This document shows positions 3,001 through 22,364 of a stretch of 64,000 nt of DNA, one piece after another; positions within the stretch are counted from its first letter, which is position 1; each line of letters starts with the position of its first letter. A program made the translations under genes and the position numbers. Source of the DNA: Flavobacterium beibuense F44-8. Its GTDB lineage: Bacteria; Bacteroidota; Bacteroidia; Flavobacteriales; Flavobacteriaceae. The stretch covers positions 1 through 64,000 of the forward strand of contig NZ_JRLV01000016.1 of NCBI RefSeq assembly GCF_000769915.1. The letters are read 5' to 3'. Under the pieces are notes generated by a model, which made no database searches, was not told where the DNA came from, and worked only from the letters and a program-made list of their open reading frames with translations.

Positions 3001-5417
3001 CCAGGAGTCATAGTATAAACATCTTCAGCAAACGGACTGTAGATTACAAGACCTTTCTCATAATCATCCCATCCGCCTACATTCCAAAATACCTCAATCT
3101 CAACATCCGGACATAACGGAATTTCAACCGTACCGGAGTAACCCCATGTAAATGAACTACCAATAGTCGCTACAGGAACTCCGCCCTGGGAAACAGTCAT
3201 GGTATTACTTTCCCATCCCCAGCCATTAACACTGGTCATTTCAAACACAAAAGTACATTTGTCTTCCGGGTTACAAACCTCAGTATTGAAAGCAAACGGA
3301 CCTGCCCATGCACTGTTTTCAGTGTCAGAACAAACGTATCTCACATAGTACTCATAGTTTGTTGCAGCTTCTAAGCCATCTGCAGTCACAGGATTTTCTG
3401 TAGTAGAAGTACCTTCTGTAGCATCAGTAGGAGCATCTCCTCCTGCTTCAACTATATAGTAATCCCACTCGCCTGTTTCAGTACCTAACCAGCTTAAATC
3501 AACAGTATTCATAGTTTCATTAGAAACTGCTAAGCTTGTTGGAGGAAGACACATTGGAGTATCACAGTTTACTGTTTCAGAATAAAGTAAAGTACCTGAC
3601 GTACCTTCTCCTATTGCTTTCTCATATATAATTTGATCAAACGAGTTTCTGATAGCCACACCAACCTGGTTAGACCATCCACCTGCATTCCAGAATAAAT
3701 CTACAGGCATACCGTTACAAACCTGTACATCTACCTCTACAGGACCTGTACCATCTTCCCATGTAAAATCAGGACCAAGAACAGCAAGTGTAACTCCGTT
3801 TTGAGAAACATTCATTGTATTATCATCAAAACCTCCCCATTGAGAAGTTAATATAAATGTAAGTGTACACTGGTCTTCAACCTCACAAACCATAGTATTA
3901 AACAGGTAAGGACCTGCCCATGCACTAAATGTACCGTCACCACAGTCTGCTCTTACATAGTACTCATAAGGAGTAGCTGCCGTTAAACCTGAAACCGTAA
4001 ATTCTGTATTAGAATCGGCTGTAGTACCGGCACCTGCAGGAACACCTGATCCCGGAGCCTGAACAACATACTCCCATGATGTAGCCGTACCCATTTCATC
4101 CCATGAAAGATCTACCGAAGTAAGACCAATATTTGTTGTAGGTAATCCTACAGGCTCACTACAATGTACTTCCTGAATTACAAGATTATAAGGAGTAGTT
4201 TGTGGCCAAGGACCCCAACTTGAAATAACAAAATAATAAGTAGTACCTGCTGTAACAGCAAATTCAGGAATTGAAACAGGAGTTCCGTCCCACGAGAAAA
4301 TACCACCATCAAGACAGTCTGTACCTATACCGGCACAAGAGTCATAAATAAAAATGGCCGCATCAGAAACAGCATCTGTCATATCAACACTAATAGTTCC
4401 GTCTGCCGGAGCAGTATAAGAATATACAACATCATCACCATTTAGGTATTCCTGCCAGTCTCCATCAACACATGACATACCTGGAATTCCACTATAGTCA
4501 TTACCATAGTTCATAGTATTATCTACTGTTGAGAATGGTAATGAAGTAATTTCAAGCGGTGCAGCACAAGTATCTCCTAAACCTACCGTACTAAAAAAGT
4601 ATGGTCCAGCCCAGTCACTCTCGTTAACACCCGCTTCACATACAGCTTTTACATAAAACTTATAATCTGTATCTTCGGTTAAAGTATTAGGATCATATTC
4701 TGCAGCACCTGTAACACTAACACCTGTACCTGTAGCAGCATCATCAACAGGAAGCACTTCTACCTCCCAGGCTGTAGCAGCACCGGCATCCCATGTTAAA
4801 TGAGCAGTAGTAAGACCCATATCTGCTGCCATAAGGTTTTCAGGAACAAGACATTCCTCAACAACAGAAACATTATCCACTAACCAACGATCTGCATTAT
4901 TACCTTCCATTACAAAAGCAATATATACGTTTGTACTGGCAGCAAAACTTGAAAGTGAAACAACAACTTCGTTATATTCTGTCTGAACAGGATTTAAATC
5001 AAGCTCCTCCCATTCAATAACCTCAGTATAAGCATCTAAATCTGAAGCATCAGTACTCGTAGATACCATTATGCGATATAAACCTCCGTTATCTCCATTA
5101 AGAGTTAACCTTGAGAAAAAGCGCAATTGTGCATTTGCAGGAAGAGATACTAATGGCGTAACTAACCAGTCCTGAGGAGTATCATTCCCGGGCATTGCAG
5201 TTTCCCTATCTACAAAAGCAGCATAAGTACCCTCATGAGGAGGGTAAAAAGTATTAAGAGGATCTGTGTGTTTCCAGGATTGCACCAACCCTGACCCATT
5301 GTTGTAAATACCCCAGCCCGTAGGTGGCCAGGTCCCCTCAAACCCTTCTTGGGCAAGTTGCGAGTAACCGCTCATTGCCGCTAAGAGCATGAAAAGCAAT
5401 AGCGTAATTTTTTTCAT
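6..5417 (-). CDS. Giant modular T9SS type B-sorted surface protein
   Basis: Predicted secreted or cell-surface adhesin-like protein of 1803 residues; substrate unknown. A signal peptide covers about residues 1-19. Then come a choice-of-anchor J-like region (about 20-190), fibronectin type III modules (near 190-280, 420-510, 620-715 and 825-920, with recurring WAGP and YYVRA-like signatures), two pre-peptidase-C-like blocks, two copies of an unnamed ~105-residue module (starting near 515 and 720), and a choice-of-anchor L domain (about 1055-1305). Ig/PKD-like repeats follow. The C-terminal ~80 residues, opening with GISPNGDDKND, fit the gliding-associated type B sorting domain that T9SS recognises. 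It is a single-gene unit with an ATG start. The family assignment of the tail is firm; the cargo function is unknown. Confidence 0.88.
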   Translation of the reverse strand: MKKITLLLFMLLAAMSGYSQLAQEGFEGTWPPTGWGIYNNGSGLVQSWKHTDPLNTFYPPHEGTYAAFVDRETAMPGNDTPQDWLVTPLVSLPANAQLRFFSRLTLNGDNGGLYRIMVSTSTDASDLDAYTEVIEWEELDLNPVQTEYNEVVVSLSSFAASTNVYIAFVMEGNNADRWLVDNVSVVEECLVPENLMAADMGLTTAHLTWDAGAATAWEVEVLPVDDAATGTGVSVTGAAEYDPNTLTEDTDYKFYVKAVCEAGVNESDWAGPYFFSTVGLGDTCAAPLEITSLPFSTVDNTMNYGNDYSGIPGMSCVDGDWQEYLNGDDVVYSYTAPADGTISVDMTDAVSDAAIFIYDSCAGIGTDCLDGGIFSWDGTPVSIPEFAVTAGTTYYFVISSWGPWPQTTPYNLVIQEVHCSEPVGLPTTNIGLTSVDLSWDEMGTATSWEYVVQAPGSGVPAGAGTTADSNTEFTVSGLTAATPYEYYVRADCGDGTFSAWAGPYLFNTMVCEVEDQCTLTFILTSQWGGFDDNTMNVSQNGVTLAVLGPDFTWEDGTGPVEVDVQVCNGMPVDLFWNAGGWSNQVGVAIRNSFDQIIYEKAIGEGTSGTLLYSETVNCDTPMCLPPTSLAVSNETMNTVDLSWLGTETGEWDYYIVEAGGDAPTDATEGTSTTENPVTADGLEAATNYEYYVRYVCSDTENSAWAGPFAFNTEVCNPEDKCTFVFEMTSVNGWGWESNTMTVSQGGVPVATIGSSFTWGYSGTVEIPLCPDVEIEVFWNVGGWDDYEKGLVIYSPFAEDVYTMTPGTETQGTIVIEGPVSCDPPPCPKPQNLTATDLQLNSALLGWDEMGTADTWEIWVLPYGSPEPTEPGVVTTDNPYLAETLDSGTPYVFYVRANCGDEDGYSTWSGPFVFTTAIENNDCANATEAPVNPGVDCLDSVTGTVTGATSSGTMASCNWQAPAYDVWYSFTATDATHSISLSNMEGGYYYMNIYEGADCDTLTDIYCGYDTATTVSGLTPGETYYIQVFADYLNNPSAPTSFELCVLTPASIIADNTTYSVEEIVTEVLITSECAQVSNITWSTGTSNGWGGENGIAMFDKGMSAFPMQKGVILATGNAMSSPGPNTNTLSEGYWPGDDDLYNYIVDSGIDPGIFSYNDATVLEFDFVPLTNHISFPFVFASEEYGTFQCSYSDAFAFFLTDITNNTPTENLAVIPSTDIPVSVVTIRNSMYNSGCGDANVDYFDSYYELGDMSAPINYNGNTVLMSAQADVVMGNTYHIKLVIADRNDNSMDSAVFIGPFDIGQINLGDDLLVENGNALCEGGEYVLESALNPDDYEIIWTHTDVNGVETQLEDTGATVVVTEPGTYTISATYLSSTCIGNDSVVIEYFPSVNEAVDLFACDSSGFDTFDLTQNEAVILAGFNAADYEVTYYLTEEDALAEENAVDASFTNTVQFGQPLFARVVGLVTGCVSVKPFNVVVEDNPPQFTVTDDFSMCEGTSGTITVTPVDFDLADVTISWTRNDEGLADTTASISVTEGGIYEVTVNNNGCLSTAAIEVNLVEMPVADVIVDLTSCGAYVLPALSENNNYYTGAGGTGDMLAVGDEIMADQTVYIFAQVPGTDCSDESSFMVTVVPAPQFEVTGDCINNEFVLQVNFLDGTYSNANVMYEWFDPTGATLTTETTAVATMQGAYQVTITPSEYDEACPFVMEYEVENPNCMIQKGISPNGDDKNDNFDLTGFNVSKLSIFNRYGEEVYSKSNYIDEWYGQSDNGKELPTGTYYYAIERVSGDSKTGWIYINREEN

Positions 5418-17090: not shown

Positions 17091-18557
17091 TTATTTGTTT
17101 AGTTCTTTTAAAATTTCCTTTACTATTTGCATATCATCAAAATCATGGCGAACACCTTTTATCTCCTGATAGGTTTCATGTCCTTTGCCCGCTATGAGTA
17201 TAATGTCGTTCGGTTTAGCCAGTTGGCATGCTATTTTTATAGCCTGCTTTCTCTCAACCACCGAAAGTGTCTTTTTGTAATTTTGAGGCTCTACGCCTTT
17301 TTCCATATCCTCTATAATATCTACAGGATCTTCGCTTCGCGGATTGTCCGATGTGAAAATAGCAACATCACTTTTTGATGAAGCTATATGTGCCATTACC
17401 GGACGTTTAGTTTTGTCTCTGTCCCCGCCACAGCCTACAATAGTTATAAGCTGTTCGTTCCTTGTTCGTATATCCTCTATCGTCTTTAAAACATTGTCAA
17501 GCGCATCGGGTGTGTGAGCGTAGTCAACAATTGCCGTGATTTGTGAAGGCCCCGAAACGATAAACTGAAAACGTCCTGAAACACTTTCCAGCTCACTCAT
17601 TAGTCGAAGTACCTCCATATCTTCCAGCCCTAAATTGATAGCTGCTGCATATATAGCCAGTAGGTTGTACGCATTAAAAGCCCCTATAAGCTTAACCCAA
17701 ACTTCCTGATCGTTTATTTTTAATAACAGTCCCGAAAACTGGCTTTCCAGTATCTGAGCCCTGTAATCGGCATAGGTTTTTAGCGCATAGGTTAGCTTTT
17801 TGGCTACCGTATTCTGCAACATTACCAGTCCGTTCTTATCATCAATATTGGTAAGGGCAAACGCCGATTTTGGCAACTTGTCAAAAAACGATTTTTTCAC
17901 ATCCCTGTACTCACTGAATGACTTATGGTAATCCAGGTGATCATGACTAAGGTTGGTAAAAATCCCCCCTGCAAAATGCAGTCCCTCAGTCCTTTTTTGG
18001 TGAATACCGTGCGAACTCACCTCCATAAAGCAGTACTCCACTCCGTCCTGTTGCATTTCGCTCAGGTAGCGATTAATGGTTAGTGAATCTGGCGTTGTAT
18101 GTGTTGCTTTGTATTCCTTATCGCCTACCAGTATTTTTACTGTAGAAAGTAATCCTACTTTATAGCCTGCCTTTTTAAACAACTGGTATAGCAATGTTGC
18201 TATAGTAGTTTTACCGTTTGTACCGGTTATACCAACCAGTTTAAGATTATTAGAAGGATTACCATAAAAGTTAGCTGCCATAAAAGCCAGTGCCTTATGG
18301 CTGTTTTTGACCAGTACATAGGTAACATTTTCGCTAAGTTCATCCGGAAACTCCTCACAAACTATAGCTTTTGCACCCAGGCTTATAGCTTTATTTATAT
18401 AATCATGCCCATTAGAAACCGTACCGTTTATGGCAACAAAAACATCTCCCTTACCTATTTGGCGGGAGTCAAACTCAACTTTATTCACAGTAATATCGGT
18501 TGAACCTTTTACTGCTTCAAGAGAGGCTTTGTATAATATGTCTTTTAATACCTTCAC
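17091..18557 (-). CDS. murE: UDP-MurNAc-tripeptide synthetase (meso-DAP adding)
   Basis: Cytoplasmic Mur ligase adding the third stem-peptide residue. It has 488 residues. The ATP loop is GTNGKTT (residues 112-118). The substrate motif is DNPR (404-407), which in this family marks meso-diaminopimelate, not L-lysine, specificity. The start is GTG at 18557; its GTGA overlaps the ftsI stop codon by four bases, a classic coupling arrangement. murF does not follow it; mraY does. Confidence 0.96.
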   Translation of the reverse strand: MKVLKDILYKASLEAVKGSTDITVNKVEFDSRQIGKGDVFVAINGTVSNGHDYINKAISLGAKAIVCEEFPDELSENVTYVLVKNSHKALAFMAANFYGNPSNNLKLVGITGTNGKTTIATLLYQLFKKAGYKVGLLSTVKILVGDKEYKATHTTPDSLTINRYLSEMQQDGVEYCFMEVSSHGIHQKRTEGLHFAGGIFTNLSHDHLDYHKSFSEYRDVKKSFFDKLPKSAFALTNIDDKNGLVMLQNTVAKKLTYALKTYADYRAQILESQFSGLLLKINDQEVWVKLIGAFNAYNLLAIYAAAINLGLEDMEVLRLMSELESVSGRFQFIVSGPSQITAIVDYAHTPDALDNVLKTIEDIRTRNEQLITIVGCGGDRDKTKRPVMAHIASSKSDVAIFTSDNPRSEDPVDIIEDMEKGVEPQNYKKTLSVVERKQAIKIACQLAKPNDIILIAGKGHETYQEIKGVRHDFDDMQIVKEILKELNK

Positions 18558-20563
18558 GATGATAATTCTAATGTTATAATTTGGTGCCTTTCATAAGGCT
18601 GCCCGGCAGCCACCGATTGTTTTTTTACCTTACCCATACCTTTTACCTCTACTTTGAGCCCCATGTTCCCTAAAAGAGCTACAGCATCCATTCCGCTCAT
18701 ACCAACAAGGTTAGGTATAGTATTGTATTTTTTTTGAGACTTGGTATAGTACGACTCATATTTTTTATCCTGTTGCTCTACTTCCCTGTCAAGGTTATCT
18801 ACCTGATTAGTAGAAGGCACATCTGTAAATATCTTTTGGGCTATCCTTTTAAATACAGGCCCCGATACATCGGCACCATAATACCCTTTGTAAATACTAG
18901 GCTTATGTATAACCACTATACAGGAATACTTAGGGTTATCTGCCGGAAAATAACCTGCAAAAGACGACGAGTAATACATACCGTTATCCTTACCTTTTCC
19001 GCGACCGTAATTCACCTGAGCCGTGCCTGTTTTACCTGCCATCGAGAAATCTTCTGAATACAGTTTAGATCCCGTACCTTTTTTCACTACGTTTTCCAGT
19101 ACAGCCTTTACCTTATCAATAGTTTCCTGAGAACATATTTTTGGGTTTAAAACCTCTTTATCAAACTTCTTTATCGTTTTGTTCCACTCTTTTATCTCCT
19201 GAACAAAAAGCGGTTTAACCATCTCCCCGTCGTTTGCCACAGCATTATACAGTGCCAGTGTTTGCAGCGGAGTCATACTCACACCATAACCAAAAGCCAT
19301 CCATGGTAGTGATATACCAGACCACGACTTGTCTCCCGGTTGCGGGATTCTTGGTCTTCCTTCCCCTTTAATGGAAACTCCAAGCCTGTTGTTTAACCCG
19401 AAAGCATTAATGTGATCTACAAACTGCTTAGGGTTATCTTTATAATTATCATATACCGCCTGTACAAGTACAGTATTTGAAGAGAGTTCAAAACCTCTTG
19501 CCAGCGATATTTTACCGTAACCGCCCTTACGCGAGTCACGTACTTTTCTTTTATAATAGGTCACTATACCATCATGGGTATCATACACTTCACTGGTGTC
19601 TACTTTTTTATCTTCAAGCAAAGTAATAAGCGATGCTAACTTAAATGTAGACCCAGGCTCCTGCGACTCTCCTACAGCATAATTAATTGTCTCGTAGTAC
19701 GAACCATCATTAGCCCTACCTAAATTAGAAATAGCCCTTACATAACCGGTTTTGGTCTCCATAACCACCACACAACCATGATCGGCCTCATAATATTCCA
19801 ACTGCTTTAATAAAGCATGGTGAGCAATATCCTGTATATATACATCTATAGTCGAAACAATATCACAACCGTCAATAGGCTCTATCTGATTGTTATCCCC
19901 TATTGGTTTCCATTGGTTTTTAGCAATCTTCTGCATCATCTGCTTACCATCTTTACCATCAAGGTATTCGGCAAAAGCACCTTCAATCCCCACTTCGCGT
20001 TCGTTCCCGCTACTATCCAGCCTATCGTAACCTATGGTTCTTTTTGCAATTTTACCTATAGGATGTTCCCTAACGGTACGTTGCTCTGTAATCATCCCAC
20101 CCTTGTACGCCCCAAGATTAAACAGCGGAAAGCTTTTCACCCTCATATACTGAGTATAGCTTAACCCTCTCGCAATAAACAGGTACCTGTTATGGTTATT
20201 ACGTGCCCTTTTTAGCGTATTGTAATAATAGCCGGATGGCTTGCCAAACATTACCGAAAGTGAATCTGACAACGGTTTTAAATACTGCTTAAAGTTTTCA
20301 CTTTTAGAAGCCATTGCATCAAACCTTATATCATAATTAGGTATTGATGTTGCCAGCAAACTTCCGTCAGACGAGTACACATTCCCCCTGTTAGCCGGTA
20401 TGGTTATTTCCCTAACCGTACGTTTTTGCGCCAGTTCACGGTAATATTCACCTTCAACCCATTGAATATTGGTGAGCTTTACAGCTACAAGAACAGCCAT
20501 CACAAAAACTGTGAAGGCTACCAGGTATATTCTGTAAGAGATATGTTTATCTTCAGCTCCCAT
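18554..20563 (-). CDS. ftsI: FtsI/PBP3-type peptidoglycan D,D-transpeptidase
   Basis: Monofunctional class B penicillin-binding protein cross-linking septal peptidoglycan in the periplasm. It has 669 residues: one N-terminal membrane anchor (about 11-31), a pedestal domain, then the transpeptidase domain with nucleophile motif STFK (S305), SSN (361-363) and KTG (511-513). A PASTA domain occupies about residues 610-669, absent from E. coli FtsI but found in other phyla. ATG start 16 bases after ftsL; overlaps murE. Confidence 0.96.
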   Translation of the reverse strand: MGAEDKHISYRIYLVAFTVFVMAVLVAVKLTNIQWVEGEYYRELAQKRTVREITIPANRGNVYSSDGSLLATSIPNYDIRFDAMASKSENFKQYLKPLSDSLSVMFGKPSGYYYNTLKRARNNHNRYLFIARGLSYTQYMRVKSFPLFNLGAYKGGMITEQRTVREHPIGKIAKRTIGYDRLDSSGNEREVGIEGAFAEYLDGKDGKQMMQKIAKNQWKPIGDNNQIEPIDGCDIVSTIDVYIQDIAHHALLKQLEYYEADHGCVVVMETKTGYVRAISNLGRANDGSYYETINYAVGESQEPGSTFKLASLITLLEDKKVDTSEVYDTHDGIVTYYKRKVRDSRKGGYGKISLARGFELSSNTVLVQAVYDNYKDNPKQFVDHINAFGLNNRLGVSIKGEGRPRIPQPGDKSWSGISLPWMAFGYGVSMTPLQTLALYNAVANDGEMVKPLFVQEIKEWNKTIKKFDKEVLNPKICSQETIDKVKAVLENVVKKGTGSKLYSEDFSMAGKTGTAQVNYGRGKGKDNGMYYSSSFAGYFPADNPKYSCIVVIHKPSIYKGYYGADVSGPVFKRIAQKIFTDVPSTNQVDNLDREVEQQDKKYESYYTKSQKKYNTIPNLVGMSGMDAVALLGNMGLKVEVKGMGKVKKQSVAAGQPYERHQIITLELSS

Positions 20564-20579
20564 ATCTTCAATTTATTTT

Positions 20580-20900
20580 TTAATCTTCCGTTTTATAAAC
20601 CTTTATCTTCTTTGGCGGAACCGATGCGGGATAAATTCCCTTCGGCTCCATTTTTTTTGATATTGTAGATTCCATTTTGAGCTTCATTAACTGAGACCTC
20701 ATATCCACAAATTCAGATCGCAGCTTTTTAACCTCATCATTCAGTTCGGTTTTACGATATACCTTTTGCTCATAATTGTGCGAATTTGCAATAAGCACCA
20801 TGGCAACTAAAATAAGGAACACAATAAAGCGCCAGTTTTTAACCGACCCTTCATCTACCAGATATTTAGCTTTCAGTAAACTGTAAACACCACCTTTCAT
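20580..20900 (-). CDS. ftsL: FtsL-like divisome membrane protein
   Basis: A 106-residue bitopic protein: basic N-terminus, one membrane segment at about residues 24-41, then a heptad-like coiled coil (about 45-80) and a basic tail. Topology, size and position between rsmH and ftsI match FtsL, which forms a complex with FtsB and FtsQ. FtsL sequences diverge too far for residue-level proof, so the name rests on context and architecture. Confidence 0.85.
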   Translation of the reverse strand: MKGGVYSLLKAKYLVDEGSVKNWRFIVFLILVAMVLIANSHNYEQKVYRKTELNDEVKKLRSEFVDMRSQLMKLKMESTISKKMEPKGIYPASVPPKKIKVYKTED

Positions 20901-20904
20901 GACC

Positions 20905-21813
20905 TTATAGTTTTTCTGCTATTCTCAACTTGGCACTTCTTGCCCTGTTATTCACTTCTATTTCTTCCTCTGTAGGAACTATCAGTTTACCAACCGCTTT
21001 TAAAGGCACTTCAAAATTCCCAAACATATCACGCTCAGGTTCACCTTCAAACATTCCGTTTCTTATAAAGCGTTTTACCAACCTGTCTTCAAGCGAGTGG
21101 TATGATATAACACTCAGTCTTCCGCCCGGCTTTAACACCTCCAGAGTTTGCTCTAAAAACTCTTTAAGCACATCAATCTCCTGGTTCACCTCTATACGAA
21201 TAGCCTGATAGATTTGCGCCAGTATCTTATTACTTTTATGAGCCGGTAAAAAACGGCTAAGCACCTGCTTAAGCTGCTCAGTACTCTTTATACTATTATC
21301 GCGTCTTGCATTTACAATTGTATTTGCCAGTGCGCCTGCATTTTTAAGCTCGCCATACTCAAAAAACATTTTTTTAAGCTGCTGCTCCTCATACTCATTC
21401 ACCACATTGTAAGCACTAACAGCACTTTTTTGATTCATGCGCATATCCAGCCCGGCATCAAAACGGGTAGAAAAACCACGCTCCGCCACATCAAACTGAT
21501 GTGAAGAAACACCAAAGTCTCCAAGCACCCCGTCTACCTCCTTAATACCATAAAACCTCAAGTATCTTTTTAAGAACCTGAAGTTTTCCGGAATCAAAGT
21601 AAACCTGTCGTCCTGTATTACATTTGCCTGCGCATCCTCATCCTGATCAAAAGCAAACAGTTTCCCGTTAGGGCCCAGCCTGCTCATTATCTCCCTGGAG
21701 TGCCCTCCGCCACCAAAAGTGACATCCACATACACCCCGTCCGGTTTTATATCGAGTCCGTCTACGGTTTCTTTCAGCAAAACCGGGTTATGATATTCCA
21801 TCGTCGTCATCAT
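20905..21813 (-). CDS. rsmH: 16S rRNA (cytosine(1402)-N4)-methyltransferase
   Basis: SAM-dependent methyltransferase making m4C1402 in 16S rRNA (formerly MraW). About 300 residues, normal for the family. The SAM loop DVTFGGGGHS lies near residues 29-39; YHSLEDRLVKRF and the terminal NNRARSAKLR motif are diagnostic. Two starts are possible: ATG 21813 (MMTTMEY) or ATG 21801 (MEYHNP), the latter matching the usual family N-terminus. Either overlaps the end of mraZ by 14-26 bases. Four bases separate it from ftsL. Confidence 0.97.
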   Translation of the reverse strand: MMTTMEYHNPVLLKETVDGLDIKPDGVYVDVTFGGGGHSREIMSRLGPNGKLFAFDQDEDAQANVIQDDRFTLIPENFRFLKRYLRFYGIKEVDGVLGDFGVSSHQFDVAERGFSTRFDAGLDMRMNQKSAVSAYNVVNEYEEQQLKKMFFEYGELKNAGALANTIVNARRDNSIKSTEQLKQVLSRFLPAHKSNKILAQIYQAIRIEVNQEIDVLKEFLEQTLEVLKPGGRLSVISYHSLEDRLVKRFIRNGMFEGEPERDMFGNFEVPLKAVGKLIVPTEEEIEVNNRARSAKLRIAEKL

Positions 21814-22261
21814 TTAAATTCCCCATTACTTCTTCTGCAAGATCAGCAAAATCAACAACCGAGTCGTCTATTGATTTTTCATACTTATCTTTGTCCCAAA
21901 TCTCAACAATGTTAACCGCCGAAGAAAGCACAATCTCTTTATCAATCCCTGCAAAAGCAACAAGATCTTTTGAAATCAACAGCCTTCCGGCAGCATCTAT
22001 CTCCACGATTTTCACACCAGCAGTAAACCTGCGGATGAAATCGTTATTCTTCTTCACAAAACGATTCAGCTTATTTATTTTCTGCATCATTTTATTCCAC
22101 TCTGTCATTGGATACAATTCAAGACATGGCTGAAAAACCGAACGTTTTAAAACAAAACCATCTTCCAGACCGGCATGCAGCTGTTTCTTCAAAGGGGCAG
22201 GAATCATCAGCCTTCCCTTCGAATCTACCTTACATTCGTATGTCCCTACAATGGTATTCAA
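21788..22261 (-). CDS. mraZ: MraZ, transcriptional regulator of the dcw cluster
   Basis: DNA-binding regulator with two SpoVT/AbrB-like halves, each with its DxxGR signature (DSKGR and DAAGR). It represses its own operon in enterobacteria. The start is set at TTG 22261, giving 157 residues beginning (M)NTIVGTYECKVD, which matches the family N-terminus. An in-frame ATG at 22312 would add 17 residues unlike MraZ, lies inside the operator boxes and upstream of the promoter element at 22289-22296, so it cannot be translated from that promoter. First gene of the cluster. Confidence 0.95.
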   Translation of the reverse strand: MNTIVGTYECKVDSKGRLMIPAPLKKQLHAGLEDGFVLKRSVFQPCLELYPMTEWNKMMQKINKLNRFVKKNNDFIRRFTAGVKIVEIDAAGRLLISKDLVAFAGIDKEIVLSSAVNIVEIWDKDKYEKSIDDSVVDFADLAEEVMGNLNDDDDGIS

Positions 22262-22288: not shown

Positions 22289-22296
22289 CAAATATA
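22289..22296 (-). promoter_or_regulatory. dcw cluster promoter (-7 element)
   Basis: Read on the minus strand this is TATATTTG, a perfect match to the Bacteroidota -7 consensus TAnnTTTG. It lies 28 bases before the mraZ TTG start, leaving a leader of about 20 bases. No TTTG -33 element is apparent; that zone is occupied by the MraZ-type boxes. Confidence 0.8.
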
Positions 22297-22305
22297 TGGA
22301 AATAT

Positions 22306-22364
22306 TTACCACTTATTACCACTTTCTACCACTTTGTTAATAAGTTTTACCCACCTACACCCAC
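22306..22364 (-). promoter_or_regulatory. MraZ operator array (five boxes)
   Basis: Three head-to-tail decamers in exact 10-bp register: TAAGTGGTAA (22306-22315), AAAGTGGTAA (22316-22325) and AAAGTGGTAG (22326-22335), read on the minus strand. Two more GTGGG cores lie at 22350-22354 and 22360-22364, again 10 bp apart. Spacing and core match known MraZ sites (TGGGN repeats in E. coli, AAAGTG-type repeats in mollicutes). The array covers the -33 region of the promoter, which predicts autorepression. Confidence 0.85.

Follow-up and report, generated by a model that had tools for sequence, protein, structure and literature searches.

A predicted DnaA box between MraZ boxes 3 and 4 in the mraZ operator of the flavobacterial dcw cluster

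Results and Discussion

Genes at the locus

The window, by which we mean the whole 64,000-nucleotide stretch of Flavobacterium beibuense F44-8 DNA analysed here, carries a dcw cluster on its minus strand, with the following genes and open reading frames (ORFs).

17091–18557, minus strand: murE-like ORF, putative, named from its sequence (ORF list)
18554–20563, minus strand: ftsI-type penicillin-binding protein with a PASTA domain (PF00905, PF03717, PF03793)
20580–20900, minus strand: small ORF, putative ftsL by position only (ORF list)
20905–21813, minus strand: mraW/rsmH, cluster gene 2 (PF01795)
21788–22261, minus strand: mraZ (PF02381, E 2.7e-27), with a TTG start codon at 22261

Assignment of the last gene as mraZ, made in the original prediction, was borne out by PF02381, whose profile matches the product in two stretches (95 bits), corresponding to the two repeats of the MraZ protein. 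Solved MraZ chains match the product at E 1.6e-16. The host had been correctly recognised as a flavobacterium, the mraZ product being 100% identical to a protein of F. rakeshii.

Two sets of relatives were used for comparison. The first consists of the 80 closest mraZ loci (67 titled Flavobacterium, and 13 metagenome bins with broader or wrong titles). The second consists of 66 promoters (58 from genomes with a search match, and 8 more), mostly one per genus and including that of the window's own genome. The TTG codon (22259–22261 of the window) is the aligned residue 1 of mraZ in 79 of the 80 closest loci (L003–L082), and a TTG or GTG start of mraZ follows 49 of the 66 second-set promoters. 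A conserved weak start codon of this kind may keep the level of MraZ low.

The MraZ box array and the core promoter

The promoter region upstream of mraZ contains the following elements.

22289–22296, minus strand: −7 element TATATTTG (consensus TAnnTTTG), read in the sequence
22309–22312, minus strand: MraZ box 1, core GTGG, about −25 to −28 with the −7 motif placed at −12 to −5
22319–22322, minus strand: MraZ box 2, core GTGG, about −35 to −38
22329–22332, minus strand: MraZ box 3, core GTGG, about −45 to −48
22335–22343, minus strand: predicted DnaA box TTATTAACA, about −51 to −59, the core of a conserved block AAACTTATYAACAAA (22333–22347)
22351–22354, minus strand: MraZ box 4, core GTGG (within GTGGG, 22350–22354), beyond the predicted DnaA box, about −67 to −70
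22361–22364, minus strand: MraZ-like core 5 (within GTGGG, 22360–22364), lineage-specific

Three GTGG cores in exact 10-bp register had been predicted upstream of mraZ, and they were confirmed at 22309, 22319 and 22329, the proposed core AAGTGGTA being valid for these three inner boxes. Both outer GTGGG cores are present as well; since box 4 lies 22 bp from box 3, boxes 4 and 5 begin 42 and 52 bp from box 1, or about four and five helical turns. A search for the triple, allowing up to one mismatch, returned one match in the window, an exact one, for 0.12 expected from shuffled sequences. In the whole 3.8-Mb genome it returned a single match, and the reversed control pattern none. The repeats are kept beside mraZ in relatives: the triple register was exact in 78 of the 80 closest promoters and had one mismatch in 2, each base of the three cores being kept in at least 99% of them. 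In the second set it was exact in 56 of 66, with one mismatch in 9 and two mismatches in 1. The finder of the MraZ start motif missed 30 of 149 loci, 21 of these outside the order Flavobacteriales; of the 81 promoters there, 60 were located and form the basis of the counts outside the order. An exact 10-bp GTGG pair was found in 39 of these 60, and an exact triple in 11. GTGG arrays before mraZ are thus common across the phylum, and the array in the window is therefore an ordinary MraZ operator. We infer that MraZ binds it and controls its own cluster.

An exact GTGG 21 or 22 bp from box 3, the place of box 4, occurs in 72 of the 80 first-set and 12 of the 66 second-set promoters; box 4 is present also in families f36, f40 and f43, and its bases are kept at 91–96% in the first set. 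An exact GTGG 29–32 bp out, the place of box 5, was found in 35 of the 80 closest loci, and the offset pair (22,32) in one of the 80, that of F. rakeshii. The original prediction had treated the five boxes as one unit. That part did not survive, because box 5 is lineage-specific and a non-MraZ element occupies the slot between boxes 3 and 4.

The −7 consensus of the group, TAnnTTTG, is given in excerpts of PMC9723704 and PMC6847099, and the former places the motif at −12 to −5. It lies 11–12 bp after box 1 in 79 of the 80 and 63 of the 66 promoters (142/146). A TTG or TTTG at a spacing of 15–23 from it was absent in 69 of the 80 and 62 of the 66 (131/146), which agrees with the earlier proposal that the boxes overlie the −33 region. 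As far as sequence can tell, the array takes the place of the −33 element and keeps an almost constant distance to the −7 element.

This nearly fixed distance fits repression by occlusion and activation by contact alike. We therefore considered that MraZ could be an activator, its array substituting for the missing −33 element and touching RNA polymerase while DnaA modulates the outcome, and we give this reading appreciable but minority weight. The constant position of box 1 and the scarcity of −33 motifs described above speak for it. So does the placing of the array upstream of the −7 element and over the −33 region, whereas in Burkholderia, as in E. coli, the array is found downstream of −10, according to an excerpt of PMC7761207. 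However, overlap with parts of the core promoter can fix the sites of a repressor, too. The alternative concerns only the sign of MraZ action and is compatible with the DnaA-box explanation developed below.

A conserved nine-mer between boxes 3 and 4

The gap between boxes 3 and 4, overlooked in the original prediction, contains AAACTTATTAACAAA (22333–22347, minus strand). Its exact form has a single match in the genome. Allowing up to one mismatch gave 14 matches, and the reversed control also 14; at that length it is not a repeated genomic motif, since the two counts are equal. Across the first set, AAACTTATNAACAA is kept at 99–100% per base except at N, which equals the conservation of the MraZ cores and exceeds that of box 4. 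The nine-mer TTATNMACA begins 11 bp (79 promoters) or 12 bp (one promoter) upstream of box 3 in all 80. It stands 11–12 bp before box 3 in 59 of the 66 second-set promoters, so that a DnaA-box-like site lies inside the mraZ promoter region and is conserved with it in 139 of 146 cases; the reversed pattern was found in 0 of 146. The seven misses in the second set comprise two promoters with the nine-mer inverted at the same place, two with a one-mismatch form and three with neither, leaving 5 of 66 without the nine-mer or its inverse, 2 of these 5 having the one-mismatch form. In family f2, box 3 is degenerate in both mraZ promoters, yet the nine-mer still stands where it should with respect to boxes 1 and 2.

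To follow the arrangement across genomes, a composite pattern was defined as TTATNMACA followed within 1–13 bp by a GTGG pair. It was present in 210 of 296 genomes of the order Flavobacteriales, against 13 of 296 for the reversed control (counted from the match table), and in 71 of the 73 genomes of the window's own family. The small-genome family f45 gave no match in any of its 57 genomes, and without them the order stands at 210 of 239. If f45 represents Blattabacterium and its kin, these negatives agree with the report, in an excerpt of PMC2768785, of a Blattabacterium genome without dnaA and DnaA boxes. Twenty composite matches were fetched with their surroundings, and all 20 sit directly before mraZ; these regions were picked from composite-positive genomes and show only where those matches lie. 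Together with three loci obtained earlier, they cover seven families. Outside the order, TTATNMACA occurs near mraZ, on either strand, in 3 of the 60 located promoters and is absent from 57. The nine-mer is no MraZ box and can hardly be a passive spacer.

The nine-mer at the predicted replication origin

GC skew of the complete Flavobacterium genome G136 was sampled in 20 windows and then followed over 446 kb in 10-kb bins, which placed the minimum at about 2,542,000. Four exact copies of TTATTAACA lie within 320 bp in the AT-rich gap between rpiB and rnr, 5 kb from this minimum. The same stretch holds one other group of three boxes in 300 bp, in three different forms. We then queried 20 genomes of the family for the region before rnr; one gave no match and one a partial match, and the remaining 18 were counted. 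The 800 bp before rnr in these 18 genomes (14.1 kb) contain 31 copies of TTATYAACA, where 200 dinucleotide shuffles gave a mean of 1.9 and a maximum of 8, and the reversed pattern was found once. At least one copy is present in 14 of the 18 genomes and at least two in 9. Because the other four (G059, G021, G108 and G025, the last with just 545 bp before rnr) have none, the predicted-origin assignment, for which skew comes from one genome, is not uniform.

A minus-oriented box followed 134–135 bp on by a plus-oriented one (TTATNMACA) was found in five of the pre-rnr genomes and in the partial locus of G035. Among the 40 most recurrent nine-mers before rnr, those containing C or G were mostly TTATYAACA or its shifts; a related GTTGTTAAC set was shared by 3 genomes, and a few further nine-mers by 2. 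G025, whose single contig is linearised beside the predicted origin stretch, has its rnr match starting at base 588 (L362).

Several other candidate origin signals were discarded. The textbook sequence TTATCCACA gave 29 matches in G136 without a cluster, below the 52 of its reversed control. Inverted-pair patterns did not yield the predicted origin, which came from the skew scan. In many Flavobacterium loci a TTATTAACA stands some 490 bp before dnaA, but it was dropped because the site reads as the coding frame of the neighbouring gene. For comparison with an origin published at mnmG (see below), the G136 stretches examined were also scanned for a MnmG motif, and none was found.

The nine-mer before other chromosome genes

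Twelve genomes of the family were searched for direct pairs of the nine-mer, 20–22 bp apart. All 12 have one before hup, and 5 have one before dnaB. In 4, the interval between dprA and an HU/SPOR gene carries a pair, at a closer spacing and in one case inverted. Gene names at these pairs come from Pfam for one genome each and from N-terminal sequence for the others. All three direct pairs in the window's own genome stand at these places, before hup, before dnaB and at dprA/HU-SPOR, and an inverted pair precedes gyrB in G136. Overall, the direct-pair pattern matched 51 times in 13 genomes and its reversed control 34 times; since this is little enrichment, only the recurrent places carry weight. 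Twenty of the 51 are the hup, dnaB and dprA places, and some of the remainder are scattered.

Two sites were set aside. At the start codon of hup, TTATGAACA belongs to the coding sequence (ATGAAC...) and was excluded from the counts. A pair in G040, TTATCAACA/TTATTAACA 11 bp apart (L276, 3001–3020), was rejected as a dGTPase promoter site because the ORF runs towards it; two converging ORFs end on either side of the pair, so that boxes are not confined to promoters.

Identity of the nine-mer

The E. coli DnaA box has the consensus TTATNCACA. The nine-mer of the window, TTATTAACA, fails to match it, having A and not C at position 6. It resembles the E. coli box in its length of nine bases, its variable position 5 and its apparent clustering at a predicted origin, and the exact textbook box TTATCCACA is found at some orthologous sites. 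In the mraZ promoter, TTATCCACA takes the place of the nine-mer in G132, G387 and five genomes of family f36, and it replaces the nine-mer also before dnaB of G182 and at dprA of G032. The f2 genome G174 has a dense cluster of TTATCCACA, five within 170 bp of one intergenic stretch (L285, 3001–3168). Three boxes stand before a parA-like gene of the same genome (L299, 3001–3060). Its mraZ promoter carries TTATTAACA, and there is no TTATYAACA before its rnr. As G174 shows both motifs, the two may be DnaA sites that differ in strength, or the variant may belong to another factor.

The DnaA recognition helix reads DHAT in four Flavobacterium proteins and DHTT in four aligned solved DnaA chains (1j1v, 8btg, 2hcb and 1l8q), which we take to be those of E. 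coli, B. subtilis and Aquifex. The residue at this place of the helix contacts bases. From the apparent clustering of the nine-mer at the predicted origin and its presence ahead of HU, dnaB and other chromosome genes, we infer that it is a DnaA box of the order. Hence the mraZ operator of the dcw cluster probably includes a DnaA box, TTATYAACA, set between MraZ boxes 3 and 4. The MraZ array itself is a further case of a known operator, and the composite operator, kept in much of an order, appears to be new; the open-licence literature searched gave no description of a DnaA box in a Bacteroidota mraZ promoter.

TTATYAACA could instead be the site of another regulator of replication or the cell cycle in the Flavobacteriales, acting at the origin, hup, dnaB and the dcw promoter. 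The same set of genes would be expected of it, the nine-mer differs from the E. coli box by its A at position 6, and both motifs occur in f2. We regard it as unlikely, given that the exact E. coli box TTATCCACA swaps in at orthologous sites and that this motif and its shifts make up most of the recurrent pre-rnr nine-mers with C or G. Plain MraZ autorepression, as originally predicted, would have the array block the −33 region, and the conserved AT-rich interval separating box 3 from box 4 would serve only as operator spacer or bend. This reading accounts for the clear MraZ boxes and the nine-mer abutting them and accords with the repression by E. coli MraZ of its own cluster (an excerpt of PMC8475190, citing Eraso 2014), but it is quite improbable as the whole explanation, because the nine-mer is found independently of mraZ as well (before hup and dnaB, at dprA and at the predicted origin), is inverted in two promoters, stays put where box 3 of f2 decays and is missing from nearly all MraZ promoters located outside the order.

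A proposed model for DnaA action inside the MraZ operator

On the DnaA-box reading, the predicted box fills one slot of an otherwise regular MraZ array. It abuts box 3 with 2 bp between them, so that DnaA and the outer MraZ array would compete for DNA or share it. Proteins on the DnaA box and on box 3 would interfere or cooperate, and we judge competition most likely. DnaA occupancy would then set how fully MraZ covers the promoter, and dcw transcription would follow the state of DnaA; we lean towards a DnaA that weakens MraZ control. In its full form the proposal is that DnaA of the Flavobacteriales directly controls the whole dcw cluster from inside the MraZ operator, with a small regulon of hup, dnaB, dprA with the HU/SPOR gene, and gyrB. 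The box would have drifted to TTATYAACA in much of the order, losing the GTGG that TTATCCACA, in reverse complement, has in common with the core of MraZ boxes. We offer this tentatively, being almost evenly divided about it.

Comparison with known systems shows which parts are shared. The arrays of E. coli, Mollicutes and Burkholderia are likewise direct repeats with a GTG core and a 10-bp period upstream of mraZ. The Mollicutes repeats, AAAGTG[T/G], occur once in M. genitalium in the account available from PMC8475190, and the triple is similarly single-copy in the genome of the window. Unlike the known arrays, that of Flavobacterium has its box 4 separated by a predicted DnaA box. In E. coli, transcription of mioC falls about 12-fold when MraZ is overexpressed, and the site bound by MraZ overlaps the mioC DnaA box, as stated in PMC4446571 citing Eraso 2014; MraZ and DnaA are thus reported to meet on E. 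coli DNA. The Flavobacterium promoter is alike in having MraZ and DnaA sites together, as predicted here. The mioC target, however, adjoins oriC, whereas in the flavobacteria the target would be the dcw cluster, and the arrangement persists through much of an order.

Origins in other members of the group have also been predicted by skew and DnaA-box counts, in Elizabethkingia meningoseptica (an excerpt of PMC8994065) and Algorimicrobium (an excerpt of PMC12843772). The boxes of the former are reported there as TTATCCACA with at most one mismatch, unlike TTATYAACA. The origin of Algorimicrobium, another member of the Flavobacteriaceae, was placed at mnmG by Ori-Finder and skew, which speaks against the pre-rnr stretch predicted here.

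If the model is right, the start of replication and the supply of the division machinery would be wired at one promoter. How division is coupled to replication is a long-standing question, and a composite operator with a mutable 9-bp site makes an answer testable in a large and genetically workable order. If the shifted box is real, tools based on TTATCCACA may miss or misplace origins of the Flavobacteriaceae; G136 shows no TTATCCACA cluster.

Related sites elsewhere

Two further sequence features were noted. CACATATTTG is present in 17 of 19 dnaA upstream regions (L127–L146), 25 to about 104 bp before the start, and is mostly preceded by TTGTT or TTGTC; the twentieth locus lacked upstream sequence. 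One of the two exceptions, L131, has TTATTCACA in its place, from which a DnaA box may overlap the −7 element of dnaA. An inverted pair, TTATAAACA...TGTTSATAA, lies at the end of a pdxA-like ORF in three genomes (L286, L287 and L289, near 3001–3024), where it precedes DUF177-like and fabH-like ORFs named from sequence alone.
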